A stretch of 34,945 nt of DNA from Desulfuromonadales bacterium (lineage in GTDB: Bacteria; Desulfobacterota; Desulfuromonadia; Geobacterales; DSM-12255). Of this stretch, positions 1-25,403 are shown one piece after another. How positions within the stretch are numbered: position 1 is the stretch's first letter; the number at the start of each line of letters is the position of its first letter. Under the pieces are notes generated by a model. The model ran no database searches and was not told where the DNA came from. It saw only the letters and a list, made by a program, of their open reading frames with translations. The translations under genes and the position numbers were made by a program. The stretch spans positions 1 to 34,945 of the forward strand of contig WQYY01000003.1 of assembly GCA_009780995.1 (NCBI GenBank), read 5' to 3'.

Positions 1-627
1 CCCTGCCGTCATTGGGAAAATGGTCGATTTATAGAAACACCGCCCCTTTCAACAAAGCGTACATTTAACTTTCCTGAGGGGATAGGAGAGATGAACATAT
101 ACCGTCTCTATCACGAAGAGATGGAATCCCTTGTAAAAAATATTCCGACAATTAAGAAAGCGCAGTTCTGGATGACATTTTCAGACAACTACCTTAAACA
201 TTTGGAAGTCCTCCAAAATGTAGGAATGACAAGAATTGACGAAGTAGAGTACAACGGCCAGAAAATAGTACCTATTCAGTTTCTTAAAGCCCTCCTCCCT
301 GATCCAAGTTCCCTGGGCCCTCTTACAAAAGGGAGGACTTGTATCGGTGTAATAGCAAGAGGCCAGAAGAACGGAAAACCTCACCAAGTATATATCTATA
401 ACATCTGCGACCATGAAGCAGCATACAAAGAGGTAAAATCTCAGGCAATCAGCTACACTACAGGCGTACCTGCCGTTACAGGGGCTATAATGATGCTTAC
501 AGGTAAATGGTATAAACCAGGGGTATGGAACATGGAACAGTTCGACCCTGAACCGTTCCTTGAAGAGCTTGGGCCAATGGGACTGCCAACTGTTGTAGTG
601 GATGGCAGGGATTGGGAAAAGTTATAA
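1..627 (+). CDS. Carboxynorspermidine/carboxyspermidine synthase, C-terminal part (5' end outside window)
   Basis: The frame is open from base 1 and reads into the ATG at 91 without a stop, so that ATG is internal and the gene begins upstream of the window. The 209 visible codons match the C-terminal half of the saccharopine dehydrogenase-like family (COG1748), in particular carboxy(nor)spermidine synthase: an FPEGIG stretch, YHEEMESL, LGPLTKGRTCIGV and a TTGVPAVTGAIMM segment near the end. The enzyme condenses aspartate semialdehyde with putrescine or diaminopropane and reduces the product with NADPH in the cytoplasm. The N-terminal Rossmann domain is outside the window. The matching decarboxylase (nspC) and arginine decarboxylase lie about 18 kb away, which favours the polyamine role over lysine metabolism. 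A saccharopine dehydrogenase is the alternative. Confidence 0.85.
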   Translation, partial: PCRHWENGRFIETPPLSTKRTFNFPEGIGEMNIYRLYHEEMESLVKNIPTIKKAQFWMTFSDNYLKHLEVLQNVGMTRIDEVEYNGQKIVPIQFLKALLPDPSSLGPLTKGRTCIGVIARGQKNGKPHQVYIYNICDHEAAYKEVKSQAISYTTGVPAVTGAIMMLTGKWYKPGVWNMEQFDPEPFLEELGPMGLPTVVVDGRDWEKL

Positions 628-6627: not shown

Positions 6628-7086
6628 AGTGACTTCGGCTTTTGGTCATATGCTGCGGCTGTAGGGGCGCGATTTATAGCACCCGATGGTATAACCGACT
6701 GATTGCATCTTTAGCCTGTCAGCTCAGGTTATACCTGAGCTAATCTATTTCCGACTGATCTATATTTTAGCCCGGCAGGGCTCAATTTTCATAACCGCAG
6801 GTCAACGACCTGCGGCTGAATAATGCAATCATACTCCTGCCTGAAAGGTAGTACCAGGTAGTTCTGCCTTCCAGGCAGATATGTTTTTTATCGTATCTCC
6901 GCAGGCCAACGGCCTGCGGTTATGAAGATCTGGCAACTTCGTTGCCCTTTCTCCAACGATGGCAATAATTCTTTTGCGCTTTTCGTGGCTTTCGCGGCTG
7001 TTGTTTGCTGTTGCGGGCGCACAATGTGCGCCCCTACGCTTCACACTCCAAACTCCACACTGACTTACAGCCAAAAGCCTGTGCCA
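6628..7086. repeat. Palindrome-rich intergenic block between convergent genes
   Basis: No gene in 459 bp. It starts with a GACTTCGGCTTTTGGTC element at 6630-6652 and ends with an inverted relative at 7068-7091 that overlaps the ABC-F stop. Between them: a GTAGGGGCGC half-element (6661), an AGCTCAGGT/ACCTGAGCT palindrome (6721-6741), and CGCAGGTCAACGACCTGCG-type palindromes at 6795-6815 and 6899-6919. There are also CTGCCT/AGGCAG at 6864-6878, GGCAAC/GTTGCC at 6932-6946, and the composite CGTG-string plus GGGCGCACA hairpin at 6978-7038. Any of these hairpins could terminate transcription from either side. Confidence 0.7.
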
Positions 7087-8988: not shown

Positions 8989-9489
8989 CTTTTGATCCTG
9001 TATAAATTTTAGATGTTTCTATATAACAAATTTCCTTACCGTATAGAATTTTTTTAAAAGGAATCATGTGTGGACGAATGAAATGAAACGCGTAGGGGCG
9101 CGATTTATCGCGCCCGATGAACTTTCGAGCAATTTGTTTTTGCGGCTTCGGGATGCCTGGTTTTTTATTTAGACCACAGAGAAAACCTTTTATTTTTTAA
9201 CCGCAAGGTGCGCAAAGGTTTCGCAAAGAGCACGAAGTTACTGCGGCCTTTGAGCCGCAATCCCCTGCTCTTGGAAGATTGCGGGTCAAGCCCGCAATGA
9301 CGTCTTTTTTTGTGTCCTTTGCGTACCCCTTGCGTTCTTTGCGGTTTATGTTTTTGTTTCTCTTTAGCTGATCGACCAATTGTATTTTTTACCTGTTAGC
9401 TCAGGTAATACCTAAGCTTACCTATTCTCGACCAATTTGTTTTCTGTCACTTACAAAGTAGGGGACACACACCGAATGTCCCGAAATAC
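8989..9489. repeat. Intergenic repeat block upstream of the ABC-F gene
   Basis: No gene. 9092-9117 is a GTAGGGGCGCGATTTATCGC hairpin element. 9170-9355 is a large imperfect palindrome: degenerate strings of CGCAAAGG/CACGAAG type on the left (from about 9175) and their complements (CCTTTGCG, TTCTTTGCGG) on the right. An ATTGCGGGTCAAGCCCGCAAT hairpin-type element (about 9238-9303) appears inserted in the middle. 9385-9440 repeats the CCTGTTAGCTCAGGTAATAC palindrome flanked by CGACCAAT copies. The promoter of the ABC-F gene should be within about 100 bp of 8988, but I see no convincing boxes. Confidence 0.6.
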
Positions 9490-9637
9490 TTTGCCCATAG
9501 GGCATTCATATCAATAGAAAATAACATACACGATACCAGTAGTCCGTAGGACTTTAACAAAATCAAAACGTTGAAGTCCTACGGACTACATGAGTATGGT
9601 ACGATTTCCCTATTGATATGAATGCCCTACGGGCAAA
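9490..9637. repeat. Nested-palindrome element, copy 1 (REP/MITE-like)
   Basis: Outer 28-bp arms at 9490-9517 and 9610-9637 are inverted copies with one mismatch and carry the ATATCAATAG / CTATTGATAT ends. Inner 16-bp arms at 9539-9554 (GTAGTCCGTAGGACTT) and 9574-9589 are perfect inverted copies. Each arm holds its own small hairpin (GCCCATAGGGC, GTCCGTAGGAC). A related copy lies at 23574-23705. The form resembles REP sequences moved by RAYT transposases. No transposase is in the window. Confidence 0.8.
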
Positions 9638-18423: not shown

Positions 18424-18564
18424 AAATTTGCGGTTGCATTTTATGTAGGGGCGCACAGTGTGCGCCAGATTATTGGGCGGTCAATAACCGCCCCTACCGG
18501 CATCGACGACTTTAATACGCAGGCGACACCTCATATGACCAAAAGCCGAAGTCATATAAAATCT
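18424..18564. repeat. GTAGGGG pair and CCAAAAGCC element downstream of speA
   Basis: 18445-18497 is a complete GTAGGGG...CCCCTAC element with inner hairpins. 18535-18557 is ATGACCAAAAGCCGAAGTCA, bounded by ATGAC/GTCAT, ending 8 bp before the speA stop. An inverted relative lies at 20497-20520, on the other side of speA. Confidence 0.65.
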
Positions 18565-20472: not shown

Positions 20473-20745
20473 AAGTAGTTAACCTTTCATAATATTATGT
20501 GGCACAGGCTTTTGGCCATATACAGCAACTGTATGGGCGCACAGTGAGCGCCCGTGTGTTGGTCTTTAACCACCCTGCCCTACGGGCACCCCTCGCAAGT
20601 CGGGGAATTTACCCTTGCCTTTGCTGTGTCATGTTTGCGTAGGGGCGGCAACCTGCCGCCCGTGTTGTTTATCGGGCGCACACTGTGCGCCCCTACATGT
20701 TTTGTTTTTCATTTTCGCGCTTTTCGCGTGTTTCGCGGTTAAATA
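20473..20745. repeat. Repeat cluster between nspC and speA, with solo DUF559-type terminal repeat
   Basis: 20497-20520 holds GGCACAGGCTTTTGGCCATA. 20533-20553 is a GGGCGCACAGTGAGCGCCC hairpin. 20568-20609 is a solo relative of the DUF559 cassette terminus. 20639-20696 is a GTAGGGG...CCCCTAC pair. 20707-20740 holds CGCG strings (CGCTTTTCGCGTGTTTCGCG). No gene seen. Confidence 0.7.
20568..20609 (+). repeat. Solo diverged copy of the DUF559 cassette terminal repeat
   Basis: 42 nt, aligning gap-free to 14232-14273, with 7 differences by eye. Both ends (AACCACCC and GGGGAATT) and the GCCC/GGGC hairpin are kept. Most differences fall in and around the loop of the CCCC/GGGG hairpin. No DUF559 gene and no second repeat lie nearby. 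Confidence 0.75.
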
Positions 20746-22064: not shown

Positions 22065-22742
22065 ATGAATAAAAAAGCTGTAATCCTGTATAGCAGCGGC
22101 CTTGATTCCACAACATGCCTGGCAATCGCCAAATCAGAGGGATTCGATCCATACGCGATAAGCTTCTCCTACGGCCAACGGCACTCTGTTGAACTGGAGC
22201 TTGCAAAAAAACAGGCGCCAATTATAGGGGCAATAGATCACCTTATAGTAGACTTTGACTATAGCAAAGTCGGCGGAAGCGCCCTTACAACAGACGCGCC
22301 TGTTCCAAAAGATGGAGTTAAAGATGAAATACCAGTAACCTATGTACCTGCAAGAAACACAATATTCCTCTCTTTCGCCCTGGGCTGGGCGGAGGTTCTT
22401 GGGGCTTTTGACATATTTATAGGGGTAAACGCACTGGATTATTCAGGCTATCCTGACTGCCGCCCTGAATATATAGCTGCTTTTGAGACCCTGGCAAACC
22501 TTGCTACAAAAGCAGGAGTAGAAAAAACCGGAAAATTCAACATACGCGCACCTCTCTTGAATATGACAAAAGCGGAAATCATAAAAAAAGGGCTCTCTCT
22601 CGGAGTGGACTATAGCCTGACCCACTCCTGTTATGACCCTACGCCTGAAGGAATAGCCTGTGGAAAGTGCGATTCATGCAGGTTAAGGCTTAAAGGATTT
22701 GCAGAAGCTGGGCTTAAAGACCCTTTGCAGTATATGGAGTGA
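22065..22742 (+). CDS. queC: 7-cyano-7-deazaguanine synthase
   Basis: 225 residues. An ATP-pyrophosphatase (PP-loop) motif lies near the N-terminus (YSSGLDSTT, about 9-17), and a C-terminal zinc site carries [17 protein letters not shown] (four cysteines). QueC converts 7-carboxy-7-deazaguanine to preQ0 with ammonia and ATP, in queuosine synthesis. FSYGQRH and [11 protein letters not shown] are conserved family stretches. The ATG is preceded by AAAGG. It is followed after 7 bp by folE2, which feeds the same pathway, so this is a two-gene operon. Confidence 0.96.
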
Positions 22743-22749
22743 AATAATA

Positions 22750-23517
22750 ATGATTGATGTTCAAAAAACCCATGACCCACGGAATATCCCCATAAACAAA
22801 GTAGGTGTAAAGGATATATCGTATCCTATAGTAGTAATGGACAGGAAAAACAAGTTCCAGCACACCGTAGCCAGGATCAATATGTATGTTGACCTGCCTC
22901 ACCACTTTAAAGGGACACATATGAGCCGCTTTGTGGAGATTCTCCATAAATACAGAGATGAAATAGCTCTTGATAAACTTGAGATAATCCTGCAGGAGAT
23001 GAAAGAACGTTTAGGAGCTTCAACAGCCCATCTGGAGATTGAATTCCCATACTTTATAGAAAAAAAAGCTCCCGTCTCGGGGGCAGACAGCCTTATGGAG
23101 TATACCTGCGCATTTAACGCAAGCCTTGGGGAAAAACTGGACTTCGTACTGGGGATAAAAATTCCTGTAACATCTCTATGCCCATGCAGCAAGGAGCTTT
23201 CTCAATACGGCGCTCATAACCAGCGGTCAATAATCTCAGTCCATGTGAGGTACAGCGATTTTATATGGATTGAAGATCTTGTGCAGCTTGTGGAAGAGTG
23301 TGGCTCAAGCCCTCTTTACTCAGTTCTTAAACGGGTTGATGAAAAGTATGTTACGGAAAAAGCCTATGAAAATCCGAAATTTGTGGAAGATATAGTAAGG
23401 GAAGTAACGCTGAAGCTTACTGATTTGAAGAATGTAGAGTGGTTCAGCGTAGAGGCGGAGAATTTTGAATCAATACATAAGCATTCGGCATATGCTTGTA
23501 TAGAGAAGAGTCTGTAG
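22750..23517 (+). CDS. folE2: GTP cyclohydrolase I, type IB (FolE2)
   Basis: 255 residues from the ATG at 22750. GGAG (22736-22739), within the queC end, lies 10 bp upstream, and the protein then starts MIDVQKTHDPRNIPINKVGV, as in the family. An upstream in-frame start at 22699 would overlap queC and is rejected. FolE2 (COG1469) makes dihydroneopterin triphosphate from GTP for folate and for queuosine. The metal-site segment TSLCPCSKELSQYGAHNQRS (about 150-170) and the C-terminal ESIHKHSAYA are present. Type IB enzymes can use metals other than zinc, often being induced under zinc shortage. No Zur-like site was recognised here. Confidence 0.94.
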   Translation: MIDVQKTHDPRNIPINKVGVKDISYPIVVMDRKNKFQHTVARINMYVDLPHHFKGTHMSRFVEILHKYRDEIALDKLEIILQEMKERLGASTAHLEIEFPYFIEKKAPVSGADSLMEYTCAFNASLGEKLDFVLGIKIPVTSLCPCSKELSQYGAHNQRSIISVHVRYSDFIWIEDLVQLVEECGSSPLYSVLKRVDEKYVTEKAYENPKFVEDIVREVTLKLTDLKNVEWFSVEAENFESIHKHSAYACIEKSL

Positions 23518-23573: not shown

Positions 23574-23705
23574 GCCCTTAGGGCATTCATATCAATAGAA
23601 AAACCGTACATAACAAACAGATAGCCCATAGGGCTTTAACGGTTAATGTCCTACGGACAAAAAACCAATATTTTTCTTATTCTATTGATATATAACGCCT
23701 ATGGC
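23574..23705. repeat. Nested-palindrome element, copy 2
   Basis: Same layout as 9490-9637. Left hairpin GCCCTTAGGGC followed by ATTCATATCAATAG (23574-23598); inner GCCCATAGGGCTTTAAC and GTTAATGTCCTACGGAC; right CTATTGATATATAACGCC plus hairpin (23682-23705). The arms share the ATATCAATAG end, but the hairpins have diverged. Confidence 0.75.
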
Positions 23706-23725
23706 GTATATCACCTAAAACTCTG

Positions 23726-23750
23726 TGAGCTCAGACTATACCTGAGCTCA
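23726..23750. repeat. AGCTCAG palindrome
   Basis: TGAGCTCAG (23726-23734) and CTGAGCTCA (23742-23750) form a perfect 9-bp dyad. Relatives lie at 6721-6741 and about 9396-9420. It may terminate the convergent transcripts. Confidence 0.6.
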
Positions 23751-23774
23751 TAGGGTTTTACCCTTCTGTTTTCT

Positions 23775-25148
23775 CTACTCCGCTGTTATTTTGCGGATAC
23801 GGTTGTTACCTTTGTCTGCCACATATACGTTACCCGCAGCGTCAACTGCTACACCAAAGGGGTTGTTGAACTGTGCCGTCAAGGGTGTGCCGTCGGCAAA
23901 GCCTGCCGAACCGCTTCCAGCAAGGGTACTCACCACGCCTTTTGGGGTGATTTTGCGGATACAGTTGTTAAACTCGTCTGCCACATATACGTTGCCAGCA
24001 GCATCAACTGCCACGCCTGAGGGAAGGTTGAACTGCGCTGTCGCGTCCGCGCCGTCGGCAAAACCTGTCAAACCGCTGCCTGCAAGGGTACTCACCACAC
24101 CTGTGGAGGTGATTTTGCGGATACGATTGTTATATAAATCAGCCACATATACGTTGCCAGCAGCGTCAACTGCTACGCCCGTGGGGACATTGAACTGCGC
24201 CGTTGCTTCCGCGCCATCGGCAAAACCTTCCGTGCCACTGCCTGCAAAAGTACTTACCACGCCTGCAGGTGTAATCTTGCGTATACGATGGTTAAGCGCG
24301 TCTGCCACATATACGTTGCCAGCAGCATCAACTGCTACACCGTAGGGATTGTCGAACTGTGCTGCTGCACCTATACCGTCGGCAAAGCCTCCCACCATAC
24401 CGCCTCCTGCAAGGGTACTCACCACCCCTGAAGGAGTGATTTTGAGGATACGATTGTTATCTTGGTCTGTCGCATATACGTTGCCCGCAGCGTCAACTGC
24501 TACACCAAAGGCCTCATCGAATTGCTCCGCTACGTCAGTTCCGTCGGCAATAGGTGCCGTATAGCTTTCTGCAAAGGTACTCACCACACCTGTGGGAGTG
24601 ATTTTACGGATAACATTGTTACCGTAGATCATACCGCCAAAGGCGTTAACCCCTATTAAGTAATCCGTCACATATACGTTGCCCGCAGCATCAACTGCTA
24701 CGCTTATAGGAGCATCGAACTGCGCCGTCGTGCCTATACCGTCGGCAAAACCTACCATACCACTTCCTGCAAGAGTAGTTACACTGTAAGTAAGCAGATA
24801 GGTAAAGTCGACAGCAGAAGTTACCGTTTTCCCTGCCACGGTTACATTCAGCTTCCCGCTGCAAAGCGTGTTTTTAGGGACGGTTACCTTAAGCTCTGTA
24901 GGCGTAGCCGAAGTAACTACGGCGGCCACGCCATTGAAGGTAACGCTGTTTTCGGCAGAAACGCTGCTGAAGTTTTGACCTGTAATGATAATCGTTTCGC
25001 CATAGGCAGCCGAAGTGGGAGCGAAAGAAGTGATCTCTACCTGTTGTGCTATCGGTTTGCTGTTTTTTTCTGATGTCCCACCCCCACCGCCACAACTGAA
25101 CAGAAACGCTGTCATACACGCAACTGCCGATAGTTTCCAAATTTTCAT
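23775..25148 (-). CDS. Secreted lipoprotein with IPT/TIG domain and NHL-repeat propeller
   Basis: About 457 residues from the ATG at 25148, which has GGGAGG 4-5 bp upstream. An in-frame start at 25181 lacks a site and would precede the signal peptide. The N-terminus is a lipoprotein signal with lipobox AFLFSC (about 14-19) and a run of glycines. An IPT/TIG immunoglobulin-like domain follows (about 38-120, FAPTSAAYGETIIITGQNF). Six NHL units, each with GVAVDAAGNVYVAD and IRKITPxGVVSTLAGSG, form a likely beta-propeller (about 125-457). The protein is probably outer-membrane or cell-surface anchored and binds proteins or glycans; no catalytic motif is seen. The repeats are nearly identical at the DNA level. 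Confidence 0.88.
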   Translation of the reverse strand: MKIWKLSAVACMTAFLFSCGGGGGTSEKNSKPIAQQVEITSFAPTSAAYGETIIITGQNFSSVSAENSVTFNGVAAVVTSATPTELKVTVPKNTLCSGKLNVTVAGKTVTSAVDFTYLLTYSVTTLAGSGMVGFADGIGTTAQFDAPISVAVDAAGNVYVTDYLIGVNAFGGMIYGNNVIRKITPTGVVSTFAESYTAPIADGTDVAEQFDEAFGVAVDAAGNVYATDQDNNRILKITPSGVVSTLAGGGMVGGFADGIGAAAQFDNPYGVAVDAAGNVYVADALNHRIRKITPAGVVSTFAGSGTEGFADGAEATAQFNVPTGVAVDAAGNVYVADLYNNRIRKITSTGVVSTLAGSGLTGFADGADATAQFNLPSGVAVDAAGNVYVADEFNNCIRKITPKGVVSTLAGSGSAGFADGTPLTAQFNNPFGVAVDAAGNVYVADKGNNRIRKITAE

Positions 25149-25403
25149 TCTTCCTCCCTTTTCTGAATTGACCCATTCCAAATTGTTTTGAATATTCGTT
25201 AAGCATCTTTACCACAAAGTTCACAAAGTATTTTCACAAAGGACACTATTCTTGGTTTCTCACAGAGACACAGAGTTCACAGAGAAAACCTTTTTATTTT
25301 TTTGTGTTCTTTGCGAATCCTTTGTGTTCATTGTGGTTTATGCTTTTTTCGCACCTTTCGCGTGTTTCGCGGTTCAAATAAAAAAAGCCGAAGTCATATA
25401 AAA
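25149..25403. repeat. Degenerate CACGAAA/CACAGAG string repeats
   Basis: A 255-bp gap with no gene. 25250-25345 forms an imperfect palindrome of strings such as CACAGAGACACAGAG and TTCTTTGCG...TTTGTGTTC. 25355-25375 is TTTCGCGTGTTTCGCGG. 25382-25399 (AAAAAGCCGAAGTCATAT) is half of the GGCTTTTGG-type element, ending 5 bp from the threonine ammonia-lyase stop. Confidence 0.6.

Follow-up and report, generated by a model that had tools for sequence, protein, structure and literature searches.

REPINs and BIMEs with their RAYTs (PMC3116915, PMC8266576) are inverted, extragenic hairpin pairs with a TAG-containing tag, served in trans by a Y1 transposase. In REPs, the GTAG at the foot of the hairpin is thought to be a guide, with cleavage at CT. 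PATEs of Haloquadratum (PMC3119063) are gene-less derivatives of IS200/IS605-type elements (subclass 1.1/IS605-type) that have near-terminal palindromes, no terminal inverted repeats and no target duplication. Members of IS200/IS605 itself (IS608, ISDra2) carry small hairpins, and their two ends do not form inverted repeats of one another. TnpA-Y1 subclass 1.2, by contrast, was described as 'REP: no', generally without terminal structures and with no IS properties (Quentin et al. 2018, PMC6006769); the published survey left these genes without a DNA partner.

We describe an element that shares the inverted extragenic hairpins, the TAG-containing tag and a putative Y1 partner in trans with REPINs, but differs from them in tag position, hairpin size, hairpin number (four rather than two) and a linked transposase that is IS200-like rather than of the Y---NP type. 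Like PATEs, it is gene-less, has palindromes near its ends and shows no target duplication; unlike PATEs, it has inverted ends, with four hairpins and a box. It is very probably a non-autonomous, REPIN- or PATE-like element that arose by internal gene loss from a complete transposon with the subclass 1.2 signature. Matching ends are now found around subclass-1.2-like genes, and gene-less copies in several phyla are now linked to a likely enzyme.

Anatomy of the element and its conserved parts

The stretch of DNA that was analysed (34,945 nt; hereafter the window) holds two copies of the element, with the following parts:

9490..9637, + strand: copy 1, a symmetric four-hairpin element; type A core without the one-sided type A/B extension
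9492..9504, + strand: copy 1 HP1, outer left hairpin, TGCCC-ATA-GGGCA
9508..9517, + strand: copy 1 left box ATATCAATAG, whose ATAG tag and the loop of HP1 are 14 nt apart
9541..9553, + strand: copy 1 HP2, inner left hairpin, AGTCC-GTA-GGACT
9575..9587, - strand: copy 1 HP3, inner right hairpin, inverted; the + strand reads AGTCC-TAC-GGACT
9610..9619, - strand: copy 1 inverted box ATATCAATAG; the + strand reads CTATTGATAT
9623..9635, - strand: copy 1 HP4, outer right hairpin, TGCCC-TAC-GGGCA
23575..23705, + strand: copy 2 (first annotated as 23574-23705), type C, with asymmetric ends (left GCCC-type, right CGCC-type)
23574..23586, + strand: copy 2 HP1, TGCCC-TTA-GGGCA
23589..23598, + strand: copy 2 box ATATCAATAG
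23624..23636, + strand: copy 2 HP2, AGCCC-ATA-GGGCT
23648..23660, - strand: copy 2 HP3; the + strand reads TGTCC-TAC-GGACA
23682..23691, - strand: copy 2 inverted box; the + strand reads CTATTGATAT
23696..23708, - strand: copy 2 HP4, ACGCC-TAT-GGCGT, with three pairs changed compensatorily relative to copy 1

The first-pass annotation had proposed a mobile element of nested palindromes in two copies, and both copies are real, well beyond chance. The folding energy of copy 1 is -49.2 kcal/mol, where shuffled sequences average -11.1 (z -14), and copy 2 folds with a z of -7. GGGCATTCATATCAATAG, for which chance predicts 0.04 occurrences in the window, is present three times. The outer arms of copy 1, annotated as 28 bp with one mismatch, measure 28 nt (9490-9517 and 9610-9637; 96% complementary), as described. 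The inner pair, annotated as a perfect 16 bp, does exist, but only as the core of a 20-nt pair (9539-9558 and 9570-9589) that is 95% complementary. Copy 2, which lies between convergent reading frames at 22699-23517 (+) and 23775-25181 (-), has the same parts in the same order, as had been claimed, although complementarity between its arms reaches only 75% over 28 nt.

The annotation had called for a genome-wide search, and had considered that a lack of other copies would speak against the element. In the assembly to which the window belongs (1.72 Mb in 135 contigs; completeness 81.5%), we found 31 distinct places, 28 of them with both ends. An oriented copy reads HP1 (TGCCC-NTA-GGGCA), ATTC, ATATCAATAG, ~25 nt, HP2 (AGYCC-NTA-GGRCT) and a short centre, followed by HP3 (inverted), ~25 nt, the inverted box and HP4. 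Both outer hairpins are of the GCCC type in types A and B; type C has one GCCC end and one CGCC end.

In 25 aligned copies, 98.4% of cells in the four local 5-bp hairpins are paired, against 87.9% in shuffles, and pairing collapses when the hairpins are shifted by one to three columns. Stem changes without compensation had been named as the other observation that would count against the element; instead, both partners of the pair had changed in 45 cells, compared with 17.2 in shuffles (0/500), an excess that is partly inherited, since the counts take related copies as independent. The long stems show no such excess: pairing is 80.8% for the outer 28-bp stem, against 80.3% in shuffled columns, and 79.5% for the inner 20-bp stem, against 79.6%. 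In the outer stem, the box half is invariant and the hairpin half breaks in type C. We therefore rejected the two-level palindrome as a conserved structure. The conserved unit is four small hairpins, with the box ATATCAATAG inside each outer hairpin; the long palindromes belong to the symmetric copy only. Thus, the suggestion that selection acts on structure holds for the local hairpins and not for the long palindromes, and selection on local hairpins and box is what would be expected for single-strand recognition.

Transposase genes between matching ends

When the reading frames around the motif were compared all against all, a Y1 transposase family, found in five genomes, proved to be the one shared most widely. 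In Bacteroidota, a Y1 (HUH) transposase sits between inverted hairpin-box ends identical to those of the element. A complete transposon begins with the outer hairpin, the box, a spacer and the inner hairpin; tnpA follows, and after it come the same four parts in mirror order, with the hairpins and the box inverted. The annotation had suggested looking for a RAYT gene flanked by the same ends; a flanked Y1 gene does exist, but its signature is Y---Q--HH rather than the RAYT Y---NP. The linked proteins score 76 bits against an IS200 cut-off of 55, and 33 bits against a REP_Tyr_transpos cut-off of 80. For the enzyme encoded on contig C24 of the window's own genome, the closest solved structures are of IS200-type transposases (2xm3, the TnpA of ISDra2; E 1.4e-7). 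Small hairpins at the ends are a further likeness to IS200/IS605. Six aligned linked proteins share DH[IV]H, SWQEG and YI(E/...)xQxxHH followed by ~30 residues, and so carry the subclass 1.2 signature of DH[IV]H, W-Q, Y---Q--HH and a short C-terminal extension (PMC6006769, Table 1). The genes that share the element's ends also agree with subclass 1.2 in length (~150 aa) and in their occurrence in Bacteroidetes; they differ from its published description in having inverted hairpin-box ends, and in gene-less copies across several phyla.

These ends follow a measurable rule. At 48 of 60 subclass-1.2-like loci, 20 of them on both sides, 13-15 nt separate a hairpin loop from RTAG, in most cases exactly 14; part of the 60 loci come from genomes chosen by motif, for which reason the set was split, and all are best protein matches to a motif-seeded alignment, so that the wider subclass is under-sampled. 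Over both flanks of the 60 loci, a loop-to-RTAG distance of 14 nt was counted 66 times, against 0-8 times for any other distance, and inverted flanks exceed the 99% shuffle level at 41 of the 60. Among Bacteroidota drawn regardless of motif, the rule was found at 22 of 27 loci, all at exactly 14 nt (dinucleotide shuffles, 0.13), and in other genomes of the window's phylum at three of six. The hairpin-13..15-RTAG layout was seen at none of 21 RAYT-type loci and none of 23 IS200-type loci, the latter control being taken from the window's own phylum since Bacteroidota gave only two IS200 loci.

Box type follows transposase clade. On a tree of 60 transposases, all box types together require 14 changes, against 29.3 when shuffled (0/200); the TCAATAG box requires two, against 7.6, and the GCTCGGTAG box forms one clade (98/94). 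Mere presence of the gene in a genome says less: an A1 match at 1e-10 is absent from 14 of 47 motif-bearing genomes, and 92 of 198 Bacteroidota have an A1-type gene at 1e-20. Same-genome presence is therefore weak evidence, and the flanks and the tree carry the case.

The published absence of REP-like or IS-like flanks is not what we observed at subclass-1.2-like loci; it is a negative finding, not a defining feature, and we argue that the description should be revised. On balance, we favour the view that subclass 1.2 is the transposase of a distinct and widespread mobile family, with inverted ends, a loop-14-RTAG arrangement, a second hairpin before the gene, a box that coevolves with the transposase clade, and gene-less copies that multiply and cross phyla, rather than a set of domesticated or element-less enzymes. 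Judging from the biochemistry of IS200/IS605 and TnpA-REP, the transposase would act on single-stranded DNA, as on the lagging-strand template, where it would bind the RTAG box and the small hairpin and nick the strand through its tyrosine; the element would move without target duplication, and deleted copies would be mobilised in trans. RTAG may be a guide, a contact or part of the cleavage site; its place differs from that of the REP tag. The end rule makes function testable at the bench, as it defines a single-stranded substrate, and it offers annotation a search rule for a class of repeats that GTAG-based REP finders would miss.

Gene remnant, copy number and distribution

One copy in the window's own genome, on contig C111, retains part of a gene. 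Between its HP2 and HP3, where tnpA starts in complete elements, lies ATGGCAAACAGATACACGCAAATTTACATTCATTACGTTTTT, which corresponds to MANRYTQIYIHYVF, 17 codons of the start of tnpA. A genome search with the protein P0006 found this place independently (76% over residues 1-17), with an E-value that is 0.037 when taken alone, the elements making up ~0.3% of the genome. The remnant fits the TCAATAG clade (YTQIYIHYVF) and not the C24 gene (FTQIHIHAVF). Together with the end rule and the box-clade tree, it ties the window element to the subclass-1.2-like gene family.

The C24 gene is the genome's one intact subclass-1.2-like gene. It falls in the GCTCGGTAG clade, on a short branch among Bacteroidota genes, and carries GCTCGGTAG at both of its ends, where the only two exact matches in the genome lie. 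We rejected it as the direct parent of the element, given these ends and an N-terminus unlike the C111 remnant. An intact TCAATAG-type tnpA was not found in the assembly, and the element's own parent type is represented in the genome only by the 17-codon remnant. Hence, movement of the 31 copies has probably ceased, save in the event that the unassembled part of the genome holds such a gene or that they are cross-recognised by the C24 enzyme. Of 297 genomes sampled from the window's phylum, 8 have an A1-type gene, against the 92 of 198 in Bacteroidota. The simplest reading is that the element was probably gained from Bacteroidota, a direction that we infer.

A genome search gave no element match in 37 relatives, and the pattern SCCNTAGGSSWTNNATATCAATAG, with 40 occurrences in genome G000, had none in 296 other genomes of the same phylum. 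Beyond the phylum, the hairpin-plus-box pattern was found in at least 111 stretches of named bacterial genomes; among the matches listed, these are mostly Bacteroidota, with others in Myxococcales, Kiritimatiellaeota and Spirochaetes. Among the same matches, which contain 133 pattern hits, an inverted partner lies at a distance of 40-260 nt from 51 hits and at a gene-sized distance (400-800 nt) from five; the gene-less form is thus not unique to the window's genome. Tandem arrangements also occur: in Myxococcales CAMKRB (L075, L141), a hairpin, box and second hairpin (ATATCAATAGCCCCCGGCAACGCCGGGGG) recur head to tail every 72 bp near contig ends, and in Odoribacteraceae (L113, 4905-4977) and at L082 (5091-5164), single hairpin-plus-box units stand in direct tandem ~50 nt apart. 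The tandem single units suggest that half an element can duplicate alone. The box sequence retrieved only unrelated papers from the open-licence literature; ISfinder or a subscription journal may already contain an account of it.

Within the window's genome, 21 of 23 tested copies sit outside long reading frames. A T directly precedes the hairpin at every type C end, and most GCCC-type ends of type C adjoin CCCCTAC or a near variant, which is the foot of a resident GTAG REP. Most type A/B copies carry a one-sided extension, YTGCYTTTCCAC, that is absent from copy 1 of the window. We rejected the idea that GCCTTTCCAC, which adjoins type A/B copies, is a target site; in 808 kb it lies only next to elements (four other hits look like chance), and it is therefore read as part of the element, extending it on one side. 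Of 28 copies, 20 could be parsed and scored for target duplication, stem detection having failed or shifted in some, and none of the 20 shows a duplication of at least 5 nt. A clean empty site was sought for the copy on C106: its joined flanks match a composite host repeat at several places that lack the element, one of them at 20507-20554 of the window. The sequences at the junctions are not the same, differing by several bases, so that the location of the element is known and not its base-exact insertion. One contig end (C14:26168-26197) falls inside an element, immediately past the box, which suggests that the repeat breaks the assembly and that copies are undercounted.

Alternative explanations and neighbouring repeats

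Three other origins can be set against gene loss from a subclass 1.2 transposon. A classical REPIN, made of paired GTAG REPs moved by a class-2 RAYT (TnpA-REP), would account for the inverted paired palindromes, their extragenic dispersal and the RTAG-like tag, and Y---NP proteins are present in the genome (C71 and C1). The first-pass annotation had likewise compared the element to GTAG-plus-hairpin REPs, but it is not a canonical REP of this kind. REPs carry GT[AG]G at the 5' foot of the hairpin, whereas here the tag is RTAG (ATAG in this element), ~14 nt inside the hairpin loop; the linked gene encodes Y---Q--HH and matches IS200 rather than REP_Tyr_transpos, the layout is absent from the RAYT-type loci, where a cognate Y---NP class-2 gene flanked by the repeat would be expected, and C111 preserves a gene remnant. 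The REPIN reading is largely refuted, and we regard it as very unlikely. Still harder to credit is a MITE of a DDE transposase. A small element without a gene, whose copy 1 has a near-perfect 28-nt terminal inverted repeat, would suit such an origin, which calls for a conserved terminal inverted repeat and a target duplication; however, type C ends differ and have lost the long terminal repeat while keeping the local hairpins, no target duplication was detected, the ends belong to a Y1 gene, and no DDE gene was seen among the frames near the motif.

It is also improbable that the element is a host-functional RNA or terminator (a bidirectional terminator or mRNA stabiliser), kept for its hairpins and mobile only formerly. 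Compensatory change does conserve the hairpins, and the placement of copies outside long frames, with copy 2 between convergent frames, would fit this function, but an Rfam search of the window gave no match, the element's presence across phyla is patchy and genome-specific, and association with a transposase explains both the conserved box and the spacing. The hairpins may nevertheless have a secondary use for the host. With respect to described classes, the C111 remnant and the lack of target duplication agree with a PATE, a gene-less derivative of an IS200/IS605-type element, but PATEs have no terminal inverted repeats and this element has inverted boxes and hairpins at both ends. Since it lacks defining features of both PATEs and REPINs, we class it among derivatives of a subclass 1.2 transposon that have lost the gene.

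A separate, unrelated and far commoner repeat in the genome consists of GTAG-tagged REP pairs (TGTAGGGGCG ... CGCCCCTACA), which look like genuine REPINs. In the window they lie at 1810-1941, 18445-18489 and 20639-20688, and also at 6661, 7029, 9092 and 26811; their inner stems vary (GGCGCACACTGTGCGCC, GGCGATCAATGATCGCC, GGCGGCAATCTGCCGCC), and their GTAGGGGCG occurs 187 times in 808 kb (~231 per Mb). Possible partners are the two Y1 proteins with the RAYT Y---NP motif on C71 (L062) and C1 (L063); a further gene, on C97 (L060), is of the IS200 type. At C74:1349-1463 and on C20 (L035, L053), the inner hairpins of the element have been swapped for a REP hairpin of the GTAG-GGCGCGATTTATCGC type, so that both repeat families are joined in one chimera. 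Yet another palindromic repeat, the third in the window, has the form AGCTCAGGTATTACCTGAGCT; it adjoins both window copies (at 9395-9430 and 23716-23760) and also lies near two of the Y1 genes (L060, L063).
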